Part shown: positions 2,831-11,430 of the stretch, one piece after another
Position numbering within the stretch: the first letter of the stretch is position 1
Layout: each line of letters starts with the position of its first letter
Source of the DNA: an uncultured Roseovarius sp.
Lineage (GTDB): Bacteria > Pseudomonadota > Alphaproteobacteria > Rhodobacterales > Rhodobacteraceae
Reading direction: 5' to 3'
Assembly: GCA_947497295.1 (NCBI GenBank)
Contig: CANMFU010000001.1
Span: forward strand, 682,001-746,000
Length of the DNA stretch: 64,000 nt
Made by a program: the position numbers and the translations under genes
Notes under the pieces: model-generated
What the model was told of the DNA's origin: nothing
What the model saw: only the letters and a program-made list of their open reading frames with translations
Databases searched by the model: none

Positions 2831-3772
2831 CTACCTCCTGCGTTTATCAAAATAAGGAAGCAGCAAAGGCGCAATCAGTGAAAAAAGTAGCGACAACGCG
2901 ATCAGACCAGAGCTTGCAGCAGCCCGCTGAAACCAGCTGGAGCGCACCAAAAGCGGTTCGCTGCGGCCCAGATAGGCGATCTCAAGAAAGCTGTCGGCAT
3001 CGACCCCCAGCACCACGACGTTCATTCCGATCTCGTCATCGTCATCCATGGTGATTGAGCCGAACACCTGATTGGGATGCGGCCCCGGCTGGTTCGCGGT
3101 TTCGGCATCGCCGCAGTCTGAGAACCAGCCGGGCTGGCATAGGATACGGATCTGATCGCCGCGCCTGATCTTGCCCTCGCGCGTGATATCGGGCGACCAT
3201 GGCGGCACGAGGCGGGCCAGAAGGCCTTTTTCATAGATCGCATAGGTACCTTCCAGTACATAGCCCGTGGCCCCGGCACCGATTTCCTGACCCAGGGTCA
3301 TATGTCCAACAAAGGCCAGCGCGCCGTTACGTCTGGCATCTTCATGGGACAGCAAAAAATAGGTATCGGCGGGAAAACCTTTGCCTTCGGTCAACGCGGT
3401 AATGCGCAACGCGTCCGGGCTCCAGTCGACCAAAAGGTGTTGGCCACGCAACCATTCGTAATCCGAACGGCCTGGGTCATGCTCGACCGCCATCTCACCG
3501 CAGGTGTCATCTTTGGCGTTGCGATCGAGCGAGGGCACGCACACCACAGCACCGTCCAAGTTCCATTCCAGCGGTTCACTCATGACCTGGACCTGTGCTG
3601 ACAAGGTGCGTGCCTGTAACTGGATGGTGCGGGTCGGGGTGGTCAGGATCAGGACGGTCAGCACCACCATAATGCTCAGCATCAGATGCGCTGCAAGATT
3701 GCCACCGGCCATGCGACGGACGATGCGCCGGATTGGGCCAAGCGGCGGCCGGGGGGCGGTATCTTCGGTCAT
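2831..3772 (-). CDS. Uncharacterised protein with N- and C-terminal TM segments and a Cys-containing extracytoplasmic region
   Basis: ORF with start MTEDTAPRP at 3772; TM segments LMLSIMVVLTVLILTT and SSGLIALSLLFSLIAPLLLPYF; ATGA overlap with upstream gene. Confidence 0.65.
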   Translation of the reverse strand: MTEDTAPRPPLGPIRRIVRRMAGGNLAAHLMLSIMVVLTVLILTTPTRTIQLQARTLSAQVQVMSEPLEWNLDGAVVCVPSLDRNAKDDTCGEMAVEHDPGRSDYEWLRGQHLLVDWSPDALRITALTEGKGFPADTYFLLSHEDARRNGALAFVGHMTLGQEIGAGATGYVLEGTYAIYEKGLLARLVPPWSPDITREGKIRRGDQIRILCQPGWFSDCGDAETANQPGPHPNQVFGSITMDDDDEIGMNVVVLGVDADSFLEIAYLGRSEPLLVRSSWFQRAAASSGLIALSLLFSLIAPLLLPYFDKRRR

Positions 3773-4494
3773 CTGACCTCGATTATAATCGTTTCGATGC
3801 GGCCCTTGCGGCGGTTCTTGACCGGCTGAAGCTCCACTTTGAACCGACTTACATTCGCAGGCAGGGTCAGCTCGCACCGTTTGTCAAAGGCTACAGAGAT
3901 TTCGGCGCGGATAGGTTCACATTCCACACCCGGCCCTACTGGAGGATAAGCGACAAGGCGGTCGGCATCGAAGCTGTTGACAAATATCGCAAAATTTCCA
4001 TCCGGTGCGGCGTCGCGCCAGCGCGCCAGCACATTCAGATTATCGGAGCCTTCGGAGCCACACTCGTCCCGGGTGATCCGAATGCCAAGCGCCTCGGGGT
4101 GAAGCTGTATGATCCGATCAGTATGCAGTGATTTGTCAATATGCGGCACAGCCACGGGTTCTGACAAGTCGTCGGGAACGATATAGGTGTTTTCGCTGTC
4201 ATAAAGCCCATCCGACGAGTTTGTCCTCACACAGATGGTCGCTTGTTCTCCATCCTGCCTTTTCCAGCTTTGCGGGATCATTGCAAACAGGTCGGCGGCT
4301 GCCGTACCACCCAGAAATTGCAGTCCGACGACGCGCGCGCCACCAGTATTGGCTTCTGTTCGCAGCGACTCCTTGAAGGGTTCTGACTTTAACTTTGCCT
4401 CCTCGGCGATGGACACCGCAGGCAAAGTGGTCAAAAATAAGCTGCAAACTGCCGTGAAGGTGCCGAGCATGCGAGATTTCATTCTGTCGTTCAT
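3769..4494 (-). CDS. Uncharacterised exported protein with signal peptide
   Basis: MNDRMKSRMLGTFTAVCSLFLTTLPAVSIAEE signal peptide; GGTGA upstream of ATG 4494; four Cys in mature part. Confidence 0.65.
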   Translation of the reverse strand: MNDRMKSRMLGTFTAVCSLFLTTLPAVSIAEEAKLKSEPFKESLRTEANTGGARVVGLQFLGGTAAADLFAMIPQSWKRQDGEQATICVRTNSSDGLYDSENTYIVPDDLSEPVAVPHIDKSLHTDRIIQLHPEALGIRITRDECGSEGSDNLNVLARWRDAAPDGNFAIFVNSFDADRLVAYPPVGPGVECEPIRAEISVAFDKRCELTLPANVSRFKVELQPVKNRRKGRIETIIIEVR

Positions 4495-5521
4495 CACGTC
4501 AATCACCATCGCTTCGACCGTAGGCGCGCAATCCATCCGTATCGAGGCGCGGCAGAATGGCCAGGGCTTTATGTTCAAGAACACTGGCATTTGTTGGGTG
4601 CTGATGCCAAGACATTTACTGGACGGCGACCGAAATGCGTTCGAAGCCGAGACATCACCTGCGCCATCGGTCTTTGGCAACGGATCGGCGTTCACGGACT
4701 TCTGGGACGGCATGGATTTCGCCATCGGCAGCCTGCGTCAGGTGGCGGGCGACACTGCTTGCACCGCCTCTTTGGGTGACGTCAGCCAGACACGCGTGGT
4801 GGCTGGCCGGGTCCAGCGAGGCTTCCTGCGTTATGTCGAGGTTGGCGGCAATATAGCCGACTATCCCATGGCGATAGTCGATACCGGAGATCACAAGACT
4901 TTTGATGCCGAATTTACCCGCGCGGGGGACGCGGCGTTTCAGGGCATGTCGGGTGGGTTTTTCTTTGCGCAGGGCCAGCCGGTGGGCATGGTTACCAAAA
5001 GCCCCGATGGCGCACGCCGGATGACATTTATCCGAATTGAGGAGATTGCATTTGCCACTCGGCAGTGGCTGGCAGGGCGGGCGCGCAATGTGGTGCTTGT
5101 ACCGAAAACTCAGGCGGCTGATCTGGGGCAACTGCCTTTGCGCTTGTTGAGCTATGACACGCCATCCGTATCGCCCGAGACGTCCGCCGAGGGGCTGGCA
5201 AATACTACGGGTGCGTATCATTTCGACTTCACCAGGCCGACGACTCTGACCTTTGGTGTCGGCGACGGCGGGGCGGTGGGTGTCAGCCGGGTGCGCGTCA
5301 TTTCCGAGGGTGAGGGCGCCAAGCCGCTAGGTATCCGAGTGCTCATCGACGCCTCGGCGGCGGGCGGCAATCCGCAGCGTTTCGCGCGGGGCGAGATGAC
5401 ACCCGATGGCGAATTTGACACCGCGCGCCGCGCCGAACGATTTGCACGCCGTGTGATCATCGCTGTCGACAGTGTGCAGGGCAGCGGACCTGTCCGCATC
5501 GACCGGGTCGAGGTTTACTGA
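4469..5521 (+). CDS. Exported divergent trypsin-like (S1 fold) protein with C-terminal beta-sandwich-like region
   Basis: Signal peptide MRDFILSFITSITIASTVGAQS; ordered motifs CWVLMPRHLL (His49), GMDFAIGSL (Asp83), QGMSGGFFFAQGQPVGMVT (Ser161); SD AAGGTG before ATG 4469; C-terminus GPVRIDRVEVY. Confidence 0.65.
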   Translation: MRDFILSFITSITIASTVGAQSIRIEARQNGQGFMFKNTGICWVLMPRHLLDGDRNAFEAETSPAPSVFGNGSAFTDFWDGMDFAIGSLRQVAGDTACTASLGDVSQTRVVAGRVQRGFLRYVEVGGNIADYPMAIVDTGDHKTFDAEFTRAGDAAFQGMSGGFFFAQGQPVGMVTKSPDGARRMTFIRIEEIAFATRQWLAGRARNVVLVPKTQAADLGQLPLRLLSYDTPSVSPETSAEGLANTTGAYHFDFTRPTTLTFGVGDGGAVGVSRVRVISEGEGAKPLGIRVLIDASAAGGNPQRFARGEMTPDGEFDTARRAERFARRVIIAVDSVQGSGPVRIDRVEVY

Positions 5522-6141
5522 AGCTGGCCCAGCAGCGGAATTTTCAGGCTGACCGGGCCGGTAAAGCGATTTGCATCGAAGCGATGACTGATCGAGCCGA
5601 TCAACTCGCCTTCGTCGTTCAGTCGCGCGGTGCCCCAAGCCGAGCCGACATAGAAACTGAATTCAGTTCCCCCCAAACGGCTGTGGCATCCGCGTAAAGT
5701 GGTCGAGCCGAAACAGTTTTCGTCGTCCAGGTAAGGTCCTACCACGATGGGAAAGCTGCCTGTCTTGGCCGATGACAGCGATCCGTTCGCGTCAATCCAC
5801 TGCTCGAATCCTACATTGACCTCGCCTTCGGTGTCAGCAGTGGCAAATGCCATCAGGGTCGGTTGCGTGTTCATGAACGCGTCCAACGCAACACCGCGCG
5901 CCACGCCGCTCGTGCTTGTCAGCCCGGCTCGCAATGCCATGCGTTCCATCGTGGCGTCACCCGATTTCAGCATCAACCGCATCGCAGTCAACGCCTTTTC
6001 CTCGTTAGGGCCGCCCAGCACTTCCATCAGCTGCTCCAGCTCGGATGTAGGAGCTTCAATTGCGGACAGGATATCGGCGGCGGTCGATTGTGCCACAGCC
6101 GGCAGTGGCATCAGGGCAGCAAAGGCCAGCGCGCGGATCAT
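5515..6141 (-). CDS. Uncharacterised exported protein, tandem paralog A
   Basis: Signal peptide MIRALAFAALMPLPAVAQS; shares AMRLM..(D)..RMAL..GLTSTS..(VAR/VRR) with the neighbouring ORF; ATGA coupling at 6138-6141. Confidence 0.7.
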   Translation of the reverse strand: MIRALAFAALMPLPAVAQSTAADILSAIEAPTSELEQLMEVLGGPNEEKALTAMRLMLKSGDATMERMALRAGLTSTSGVARGVALDAFMNTQPTLMAFATADTEGEVNVGFEQWIDANGSLSSAKTGSFPIVVGPYLDDENCFGSTTLRGCHSRLGGTEFSFYVGSAWGTARLNDEGELIGSISHRFDANRFTGPVSLKIPLLGQLQ

Positions 6142-6749
6142 GGCCGTACCGGGATCGAGATCGGCACCGATGGCGTCAGCCGGTCTACCTGCACCATGCC
6201 GGTCAACGTGCCTTCGGCATTCAGCGTCAGCGGAGTCCAGCGGCTCCACAGACCGATTCCGACGCTGGTCTCACTGAGGGTAATCAGGCAGTAACTGGCA
6301 TTGGACTGAAAGTCATAGCACCCGTTGGCGTCGTCGAATGGACCCACCTTGTAGGACAGAAATGCGGTTCCATCGCCGTTCACCGTGCCGCTGCGCTGAT
6401 TGATATAGCTGGTCAGGCTCTTGCGATCCAGTGACGAGCCGTCGATGAAAATATCCAGCACCGGACCGCTATCGAAATAGGCCTTGAGCGCCGCACGCCG
6501 CACGGGAGGGCTGGTGCTGGTCAGACCATGTTGCAGGGCCATTCGCCTGACTTGAGGGTCTTCAAGACCGATCATGAGTCGCATGGCGACAAGCGACCGT
6601 TCGGGATCGGGATCGTTCAGCAAGGCGGCATATTCATCGACCGCGTCCATTTTCTGGTCGACGAGTGCGGCGATGTCTGCTGCGGAGGTTTGGGCCGATG
6701 CAGATCCGCAAAAGGCTGCCAGAACTGTCGCTGCTAATAAAAGCCTCAT
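6138..6749 (-). CDS. Uncharacterised exported protein, tandem paralog B
   Basis: Signal peptide MRLLLAATVLAAFCGSASAQT; TSAADIAALVDQ...LVAMRLMIGLEDPQVRRMALQHGLTSTSPPVRRAALKAYF matches paralog A in order and spacing. Confidence 0.7.
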   Translation of the reverse strand: MRLLLAATVLAAFCGSASAQTSAADIAALVDQKMDAVDEYAALLNDPDPERSLVAMRLMIGLEDPQVRRMALQHGLTSTSPPVRRAALKAYFDSGPVLDIFIDGSSLDRKSLTSYINQRSGTVNGDGTAFLSYKVGPFDDANGCYDFQSNASYCLITLSETSVGIGLWSRWTPLTLNAEGTLTGMVQVDRLTPSVPISIPVRP

Positions 6750-7154
6750 CCAAACATTCCCATAATACAGATTTACCAATTACCTTAACGCTGCGCCAAC
6801 AAGCGTCAAGTCACCGAGCGTCCAAAACATGTGGGAGGCCCGAGCGGCAGCAATGCGAAATCCGCGATGCAGAACTCATACTTTAAGTGTGATGTTCGGC
6901 AGGGGCCGTTCGCATTGACCAGGCGAACGGGTGCCCAGGATGCGTGCCGCGCCGCCGCAACTCGGCTTAACGCTCAAATTGGCCTTTTTCACTTGCAGTA
7001 AAACCTCTCGCTTTGATCTCCCGTACTGCGCGGCGACGATACGTATGCGCAATGCGCAGAAGAATGCACTCTCAAGGATTGAGCGAAGTGTCCCATCAAT
7101 TCGAATTCCGAGCCTGAGCACAGTTTTCTGTCCTGACGCGTTCTGTTGCGCCAT

Positions 7155-7412
7155 GGGGAAGCGCTCTTTCAGCATGATGGCGAGCTGGCTCTTGGCTGCA
7201 TGCCATTCGCGCACCGAGCGCTTCCGCCCAATCGGGGCATCATTGAGAGCCAGATAAATCAAATTCGCCGCCGCGTAGTCGCTGGGGAAGCGGCCGCGGG
7301 TTCGAACCGCACGCCGGATTTTTGAGTTCAGCGCTGTGGTGGCGCTTGCCATGTAGATCACTCGACACACCGCAGGACGGTAGTCAAGGAACGAGACCGC
7401 CTCGTTCCAGGC
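7155..7412 (-). pseudogene. IS256-family transposase C-terminal remnant
   Basis: VIYMASATTALNSKIRRAVRTRGRFPSDYAAANLIYLAL...REWHAAKSQLAIMLKERF resembles the IS256 (Mutator-like) C-terminus; no N-terminal part. Confidence 0.75.
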
Positions 7413-7620
7413 GCGCCGCCCACTCGGCGTGATCGCCGGGCAAGGGGCGGCCAGTATCGACCTCGACCTTTTCGCCCCAATCATTCAGCGTTTGCGGCGC
7501 ACAGCCGATCTTCGACGCGATCGCAGGACCGCGGCTCTTATCCTCTCTCCGAGTGTCCAAAACCATGCGCACGGCTCGGTCGCGCATTTCCGGTGTATAC
7601 TTGTTCGTTGTTACGTTCAT
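7384..7620 (-). pseudogene. Truncated IS3-family transposase OrfA
   Basis: KYTPEMRDRAVRMVLDTRRE...AIASKIGCAPQTLNDWGEKVEVDTG resembles the IS3 OrfA HTH; runs into unrelated IS256-derived sequence. Confidence 0.75.
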
Positions 7621-9658: not shown

Positions 9659-11430
9659 TGAGCGATAAACCCGTCATTTCGGTCAAAGACTTGACCATAT
9701 CATTTGGTAAAACCACCGTTGTGCATGACCTCAGCTTTGAGATTGCGGCGGGCAGTACGCTGGCGCTGGTCGGAGAATCCGGATCGGGCAAAAGTGTGAC
9801 GTCGCTGGCTATCATGGGACTTTTGCCAGATCGGATTGGCCACGCCAAAGGCTCTGTCAATCTGGAGGGCCGCGAGCTGTTGTCTCTCAGCGAGCGCGAA
9901 ATGCGCTCAGTGCGCGGCGGGCGCGTCAGCATGATCTTTCAGGAGCCGATGACCTCGATGAACCCGGTGCAGCGCATTGGTGATCAGTTGGCCGAAGTGA
10001 TCCGTATTCACCGAGGCCTCAGGGGCGAGGACCTCAGGGCAGCAGCAATCGAGCTGCTTCGGACAGTGCGCATTCCTGACCCTGAGACGCGGATGGCGCA
10101 ATATCCGCATACATTTTCCGGCGGAATGCGACAGCGTGTCATGATTGCGATGGCGCTTGCCTGCGATCCGGCGCTGATAATCGCGGATGAACCGACGACC
10201 GCGCTCGACGTTACGGTGCAGGCTCAAACCCTCGCATTGCTAAAGGATCTTCAGCAAAAAACCGGTACGGCGGTGTTGTTTATTACCCATGACATGGGCG
10301 TGGTGGCCGAGGTTGCCGACCATGTGTTGGTCATGCGTCACGGGCGGGAAATCGAAAGCGGAACTGTCCACGAGCTGTTTTCGAACCCGCGCGATCCATA
10401 TACCCGCAGCCTGATCGAGGCGGTCCCGAGCCTTGTTGGTAAGTTGGCTGACGACACGATTCCCGCAAAGCCAATTGAACATCTTCCTGTAACCTTTCCG
10501 GGGGACCAACCGGTACTAGAGGTCAACGACTTGTCTGTGCGCTTTCCTGTTCAGTCAGGTTTTTTAAGCCGTACGACCGGAATGGTACATGCCGTCGATC
10601 AGGTGTCATTCGCCATCGGCAAAGCAGAAACCCTAGGCCTTGTGGGCGAGTCCGGTTCAGGTAAGTCCACCATCGGAAAGGCTATAATCAACCTCGCACC
10701 AATGCACTCCGGCGACATCAAAGTGTCCGGCGAGACAATCAATTACAGTGATCCGCAAAGCCTTGCGCGAATGCGGCGTGACGTTCAGATGATTTTTCAG
10801 GACCCGTTCGGCTCACTGGATTCAAGGCAATCCATTGGCTCAGCCATTATAGAGCCAATGAAGGTCCATGGACTGGCCAAGGGTCGTGAGGCTGTCGAGA
10901 AGATGGAATGGTTGATGGATCGCGTCGGGCTATCTCCTGCGCGGTCCTCCAGCCTGCCGCATGAGTTTTCAGGTGGCCAGCGCCAGCGAATTTGCATCGC
11001 ACGTGCTCTTGCAATGTCACCCAAGCTCATCATCGCAGACGAGGCTGTCTCTGCTCTGGATGTAACGATCAAAGGCCAGATCATTGAACTGATGATCGAC
11101 CTTCAAGCCGAACTCGGTGTCTCATATCTGTTCATCAGCCACGATATGGGCGCGGTCGAGCGGATCTGTGACCGCGTTGCGGTCATGTACTTCGGCGAAA
11201 TTGTCGAAATAGGGCAGCGGGAGGATGTGATTGGCCGGCCAGGGCATGACTATACCCAGCGGTTGCTGTCTGCCATTCCGATAACGCACCCCAATCTGCG
11301 CGGTCAGCGCCCGCTCCCCTCAGGGGCCGTTGCAGCACCGCGCAGCCCGATCAAGCCGCTGGATTTTCAATCCCCTCCATCAAGCTGGAGCATGGCAGCC
11401 GAAGGGCATTTCATACGCCGCGCCGTTTGA
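9655..11430 (+). CDS. Fused dual-ATPase peptide ABC transporter ATP-binding protein (DppD-DppF fusion)
   Basis: Two Walker A (GESGSGKSVTS, GESGSGKSTIGK), two signature motifs (FSGGMRQR, FSGGQRQR), two Walker B. Confidence 0.93.
   Translation: MMSDKPVISVKDLTISFGKTTVVHDLSFEIAAGSTLALVGESGSGKSVTSLAIMGLLPDRIGHAKGSVNLEGRELLSLSEREMRSVRGGRVSMIFQEPMTSMNPVQRIGDQLAEVIRIHRGLRGEDLRAAAIELLRTVRIPDPETRMAQYPHTFSGGMRQRVMIAMALACDPALIIADEPTTALDVTVQAQTLALLKDLQQKTGTAVLFITHDMGVVAEVADHVLVMRHGREIESGTVHELFSNPRDPYTRSLIEAVPSLVGKLADDTIPAKPIEHLPVTFPGDQPVLEVNDLSVRFPVQSGFLSRTTGMVHAVDQVSFAIGKAETLGLVGESGSGKSTIGKAIINLAPMHSGDIKVSGETINYSDPQSLARMRRDVQMIFQDPFGSLDSRQSIGSAIIEPMKVHGLAKGREAVEKMEWLMDRVGLSPARSSSLPHEFSGGQRQRICIARALAMSPKLIIADEAVSALDVTIKGQIIELMIDLQAELGVSYLFISHDMGAVERICDRVAVMYFGEIVEIGQREDVIGRPGHDYTQRLLSAIPITHPNLRGQRPLPSGAVAAPRSPIKPLDFQSPPSSWSMAAEGHFIRRAV

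Follow-up and report, generated by a model that had tools for sequence, protein, structure and literature searches.

Do five small genes, four on one strand and one opposed to them, belong to a single system, and what might that system do? The question is raised by positions 2,831 to 6,749 of the window, i.e., the whole 64,000-nucleotide stretch of uncultured Roseovarius sp. DNA that was analysed. According to the original prediction, the products of these genes work together in the periplasm or at the cell surface, perhaps as a protease with partner or regulatory proteins.

Five genes, four families

The five ORFs all lie where predicted, on the predicted strands. Four lie on the minus strand: B (6138..6749, 203 aa), A (5515..6141, 208 aa), D (3769..4494, about 233–241 aa) and E (2831..3772). 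The fifth, C (4469..5521, 350 aa), is on the plus strand, antisense to the other four. The 4-nt ATGA overlaps expected at the B/A and D/E junctions were both found, and C and A overlap tail to tail by 7 nt. D also has an in-frame start at 4470, which shares a CATG (4468..4471, assigned to neither strand) with the C start at 4469, so that the same four bases supply an ATG to C on the plus strand and to D on the minus strand. The true start of D may therefore be 4470, 24 nt downstream of the 4494 originally chosen.

Compared with its counterpart in L043, the closest homologous cluster (63–81% protein identity), each of the five genes had a dN/dS of 0.10–0.13 (0.12 for A and B, 0.13 for D and E). 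Such low values (about 0.1–0.3 overall) indicate purifying selection, so all five ORFs are real genes rather than chance ORFs. A and B are 31% identical across 191 aa (E=5e-24) and by this sequence measure are paralogs, which reduces the five genes to four families: AB, C, D and E.

The locus was also predicted to be bracketed by decayed genes and IS fragments. A fragment of a Mutator-family transposase does adjoin the cluster (6879-7484; PF00872, Transposase_mut, E=2e-10), confirming an IS remnant at 6.9–7.5 kb of the window. On the other side, the ORFs tested at 1.9–2.5 kb had no Pfam match, which is consistent with gene decay.

Co-occurrence and layout

A co-occurrence check had been proposed along with the original prediction. 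Family profiles were searched against genome samples, and the DNA surrounding the matches was then scanned with profiles of AB, C, D and E. The four families were found side by side at 44 loci, arranged in three layouts: 43 loci (two in one genome) plus L102. Their hosts are more than 40 genomes, from Rhodobacteraceae and further Alphaproteobacteria and, beyond that class, from one pseudomonadote (L102). By profile search, C was found in 18 of 397 genomes of the family Rhodobacteraceae (18 of 396 sampled genera), in 15/296 genomes of the order sample, in 6/387 of the class sample and, outside the class, at a strong E-value in 1/399 genomes of the phylum sample. Further copies are carried on plasmids of Cereibacter sphaeroides, Paracoccus aminovorans and Tistrella mobilis, where the products are hypothetical proteins if annotated at all; in C. 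sphaeroides 2.4.1 the copy sits on plasmid pC and has the locus tags DQL45_RS22020 to RS22035 together with RS23585. The cluster was not found in the phage records searched.

Of 150 family genomes searched for each of these families, six carried C, and all of these had AB and D (6/6). D was present without C in one genome of this sample (L135, which has an E-like gene), while AB was present without C in two at a strong E-value, plus one weak match. Solitary pieces are thus rare; they include a D–E pair with neither C nor AB (L135:6607-8539) and AB-like genes standing alone (L133:2586-3401 and L134:6070-6717). The E homolog is diverged in L051–L053: the HMM matches were weak at L052 and L053, and the L051 gene could be assigned only by its position and terminal hydrophobic segments. 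A search of genome contigs with E alone found nothing, because E is too diverged. The distances within each of the four proteins are correlated with one another (Mantel r 0.75–0.87), in part because a linked cluster shares its ancestry. One further candidate, L054, was rejected as a protease cluster since it matches only the C-terminal domain of C.

An all-against-all comparison of the flanks revealed no recurrent cluster-specific neighbour. The flanks share only common transporter and regulator families, so an extra conserved partner was rejected. Two isolated neighbours were noted. Contractile-injection or phage-tail-like genes (sheath, tube and spike-like, judged by eye) lie about 3–7 kb off the E end of the cluster at L084:1-4252 and L016:16539-19994. 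On the C. sphaeroides plasmid, an exported caspase-family gene is located three genes past E on the same strand (L124:3470-4918); it was not found at other loci.

The patchy distribution, the plasmids and the nearby IS remnants would suit an anti-phage or other envelope-acting defence system. We consider this highly unlikely, since no part matches PADLOC models, phage records lack the cluster, and 95 flanking proteins gave only scattered defence matches among mostly metabolic genes. A defence island was likewise rejected, as scanning the flanks with PADLOC and Pfam showed no enrichment.

By far the commonest, with 38 loci, is layout I (AB> <C D> E>), which has C antisense between AB and D-E; L046 is a variant of it with AB relocated to the opposite end. 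Four loci (L051, L052, L053 and L094) have layout II (D> E> C> <AB). The remaining layout, III (C> AB> D> E>), was seen only at L102, outside Alphaproteobacteria, where the genes form a co-directional operon with short AB/D and D/E overlaps. The L102 cluster lies between a helicase gene and a partial duplicate of that gene (5090-6292, 10760-11284), as if the cluster had been inserted with a duplication.

Because the four families are kept while their order and strand change, the evidence for a functional unit is stronger than simple synteny would provide. AB, C, D and E are very probably one working unit, so the core of the original prediction is supported by the 44 loci, with the correction that there are four families rather than five. 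If five unrelated genes had become neighbours by chance, the opposite strand of C would be easily understood; that explanation is refuted by co-occurrence at 44 loci in three layouts with no other conserved neighbours, and we regard it as vanishingly improbable.

The junctions bear on how the unit might be regulated. In layout I the starts of C and D overlap or nearly meet, and at 25 of 39 loci with head-to-head C and D, one CATG provides in-frame ATG starts for both. At their other ends, the stop codons of C and AB usually overlap or are 0–20 nt apart. This closeness leaves hardly any space, if any, for promoters or terminators of their own. Together with the shared CATG, it suggests regulation of the noncontiguous-operon type, and layout I has the defining arrangement of such operons, i.e., an opposite-strand gene inside a gene set on the other strand. 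Promoters embedded in the genes were unsupported: promoter and terminator scans gave results at chance level, and synonymous-site conservation against L043 had no clear peak at the C/D junction.

The protease-like protein and its partners

C was originally described as trypsin-like, which agrees with its predicted structure. Its AlphaFold model (pLDDT 88) has a chymotrypsin double beta-barrel fold (Foldseek prob 1.00, target TM about 0.6), with matches to trypsin/chymase at E about 1e-6. There were 378 PDB matches to the model at E<=0.001, the top ones mostly trypsin-like, and DegS was among the matches. The His-Asp-Ser triad (H49, D83, S161) is in order and accompanied by a GxSG motif; these three residues and G162 are invariant in 43/43 C sequences, whose identity to the window protein goes down to 15%, and two Cys are likewise invariant across the 43. 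No Pfam protease family matched C. With hhalign, it aligned to the HtrA protease domain (E=1.7e-4, probability 49%), triad on triad. Model and sequence together point to C being a putative exported chymotrypsin-type serine protease with an intact triad, although triad-bearing chymotrypsin-fold proteins can be non-proteolytic.

Beyond the protease-like part, C has a C-terminal CBM32/F5-8C-like domain. In the predicted model, Foldseek placed this tail on CBM32 with a target TM of 0.74–0.75 and an rmsd of 2.6–2.7 over about 140 columns, consistent with a discoidin jelly-roll fold, which by itself does not imply glycan binding. In L102, C ends instead in a bacterial SH3-like domain (a match with E=6e-5, short of the curated cut-off), which suggests that the tail can be exchanged. 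In L041, a second partial copy of the C-terminal domain directly follows C (G118:C14:8623-8772).

The partners are less easily classified. When the window proteins were compared with Pfam and NCBIfam, both as single proteins and as profiles (and also with PDB sequences), no family scored above cut-off: D and E match no family, and AB and C pass no family threshold. The prediction that only C would suggest a known family therefore stands for D and E. It needs qualifying for AB, which weakly resembles HEAT: the score against Pfam HEAT was 20.5 bits (below the cut-off of 23.5), and 6/13 AB members had sub-threshold HEAT_2 matches, the best with an E-value of 1e-4.

AB is exported, with a HEAT-like N-terminal part and a C-terminal part that contains two nearly invariant Cys (the pair C144 and C154 in B). 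D is also exported and has four conserved Cys. E is a membrane protein whose AlphaFold model (pLDDT 90) has two terminal TM helices (residues 25-44 and 288-312), as the original prediction had anticipated, and between them a beta-rich domain with one conserved Cys pair. The E model had no match at E<=0.001 among PDB and viral structures. Several apparent similarities were set aside: antibody matches of D were not meaningful, MHC matches of E were rejected (prob below 0.2, TM about 0.1), and relatedness of D to E or to AB was rejected beyond the signal peptide. A, B, C and D all have the signal-peptide-like N termini expected of them, so the sequences, and for E also the model, support a location of all parts outside the cytoplasm or in the membrane.

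These features also allow two other readings. The cluster could be a protease-inhibitor or toxin-immunity set in which C is a harmful exported protease that AB (and D and E) neutralise, with AB duplication reflecting an arms race. AB does occur in 1–3 diverged copies per locus, the distribution is patchy and partly plasmid-borne, and in layouts I and II the AB and C genes converge on each other side by side. We nevertheless consider this unlikely, because C has no delivery domain, no secretion locus is linked to the cluster (except for contractile-injection genes near 2/44 loci), and three partner families exceed what immunity requires.

Alternatively, the cluster could be an envelope-stress or surface-signal pathway with E as the sensor and C as the protease that cuts a periplasmic regulator in a DegS-like manner. 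The relatedness of the C catalytic domain to HtrA/DegS-type domains and the two-TM arrangement of E, with its large domain between the helices, would suit such a role. However, C has no PDZ domain, the neighbouring genes include no recurrent sigma factor, anti-sigma factor or other regulator, and an accessory distribution (C in 18 of 396 sampled genera) is unlike that of a core stress pathway. We think this reading quite unlikely.

Proposed function and known systems

The reading we prefer, to which we give about an even chance, is that the genes form a self-contained module for proteolysis in the cell envelope; its proteolytic activity, complex, division of roles and periplasmic site are what we infer. 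C would be the exported putative protease, positioned in the envelope by its glycan/wall-binding-type tail. E would sit in the inner membrane with its beta-rich domain in the periplasm and anchor or control C. AB may be a periplasmic HEAT-like adaptor or inhibitor that delivers substrates to C or restrains it, and D may be an additional exported partner or accessory factor. The adaptor role of AB and the anchor role of E are proposed by analogy. In the common layout, the C and AB/D-E transcripts would regulate each other in the style of a noncontiguous operon.

A broader claim, which we put forward tentatively and rate somewhat below an even chance, is that these genes encode an envelope machine not described before: a protease of trypsin fold whose wall/glycan-binding tail can be swapped, working with three new families (one with a new membrane-protein fold) and controlled by a conserved noncontiguous operon in which opposed genes share a CATG start. 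A few searches of open-licence PMC papers found no description of the cluster; an earlier description elsewhere is possible. D and E fall into no database family, and nothing in the PDB matches the E model, so solving a structure might reveal a fold not seen before. What were five hypothetical genes are now a module of four defined families, with a catalytic residue that can be tested. Moreover, because a copy is carried on pC of the genetically tractable C. sphaeroides 2.4.1, its function, partners and antisense-layout regulation can be tested directly.

Three known systems offer comparisons. The first is the E. coli pair Prc, a PDZ tail-specific protease, and NlpI, its lipoprotein adaptor (PMC5686067). 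The likeness is an envelope protease with a repeat-type adaptor, the role proposed for AB; AB is HEAT-like with no lipobox by eye, and we claim no homology. The second is the noncontiguous operon, e.g., menE-menC-MW1733-ytkD-MW1731 of S. aureus (PMC7154746), which likewise has an opposite-strand gene within a co-directional set. Unlike that example, the arrangement described here is known from DNA layout alone, and it is kept in 38 loci with co-directional forms elsewhere.

The third comparison, for C, is the HtrA family (DegP/DegS; Pfam Trypsin_2). C resembles these proteases in being exported, in its predicted chymotrypsin fold, in the alignment of its triad with theirs and in having DegS as a Foldseek match. 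It differs in passing no Pfam threshold, in its two invariant Cys and in lacking the Trypsin_2 plus PDZ architecture of HtrA (Do-like) proteins: where HtrA has PDZ, C has a CBM32/discoidin-like (or SH3-like) C-terminal domain. C also differs from the HtrA family in the company it keeps, coming with three conserved partner families.
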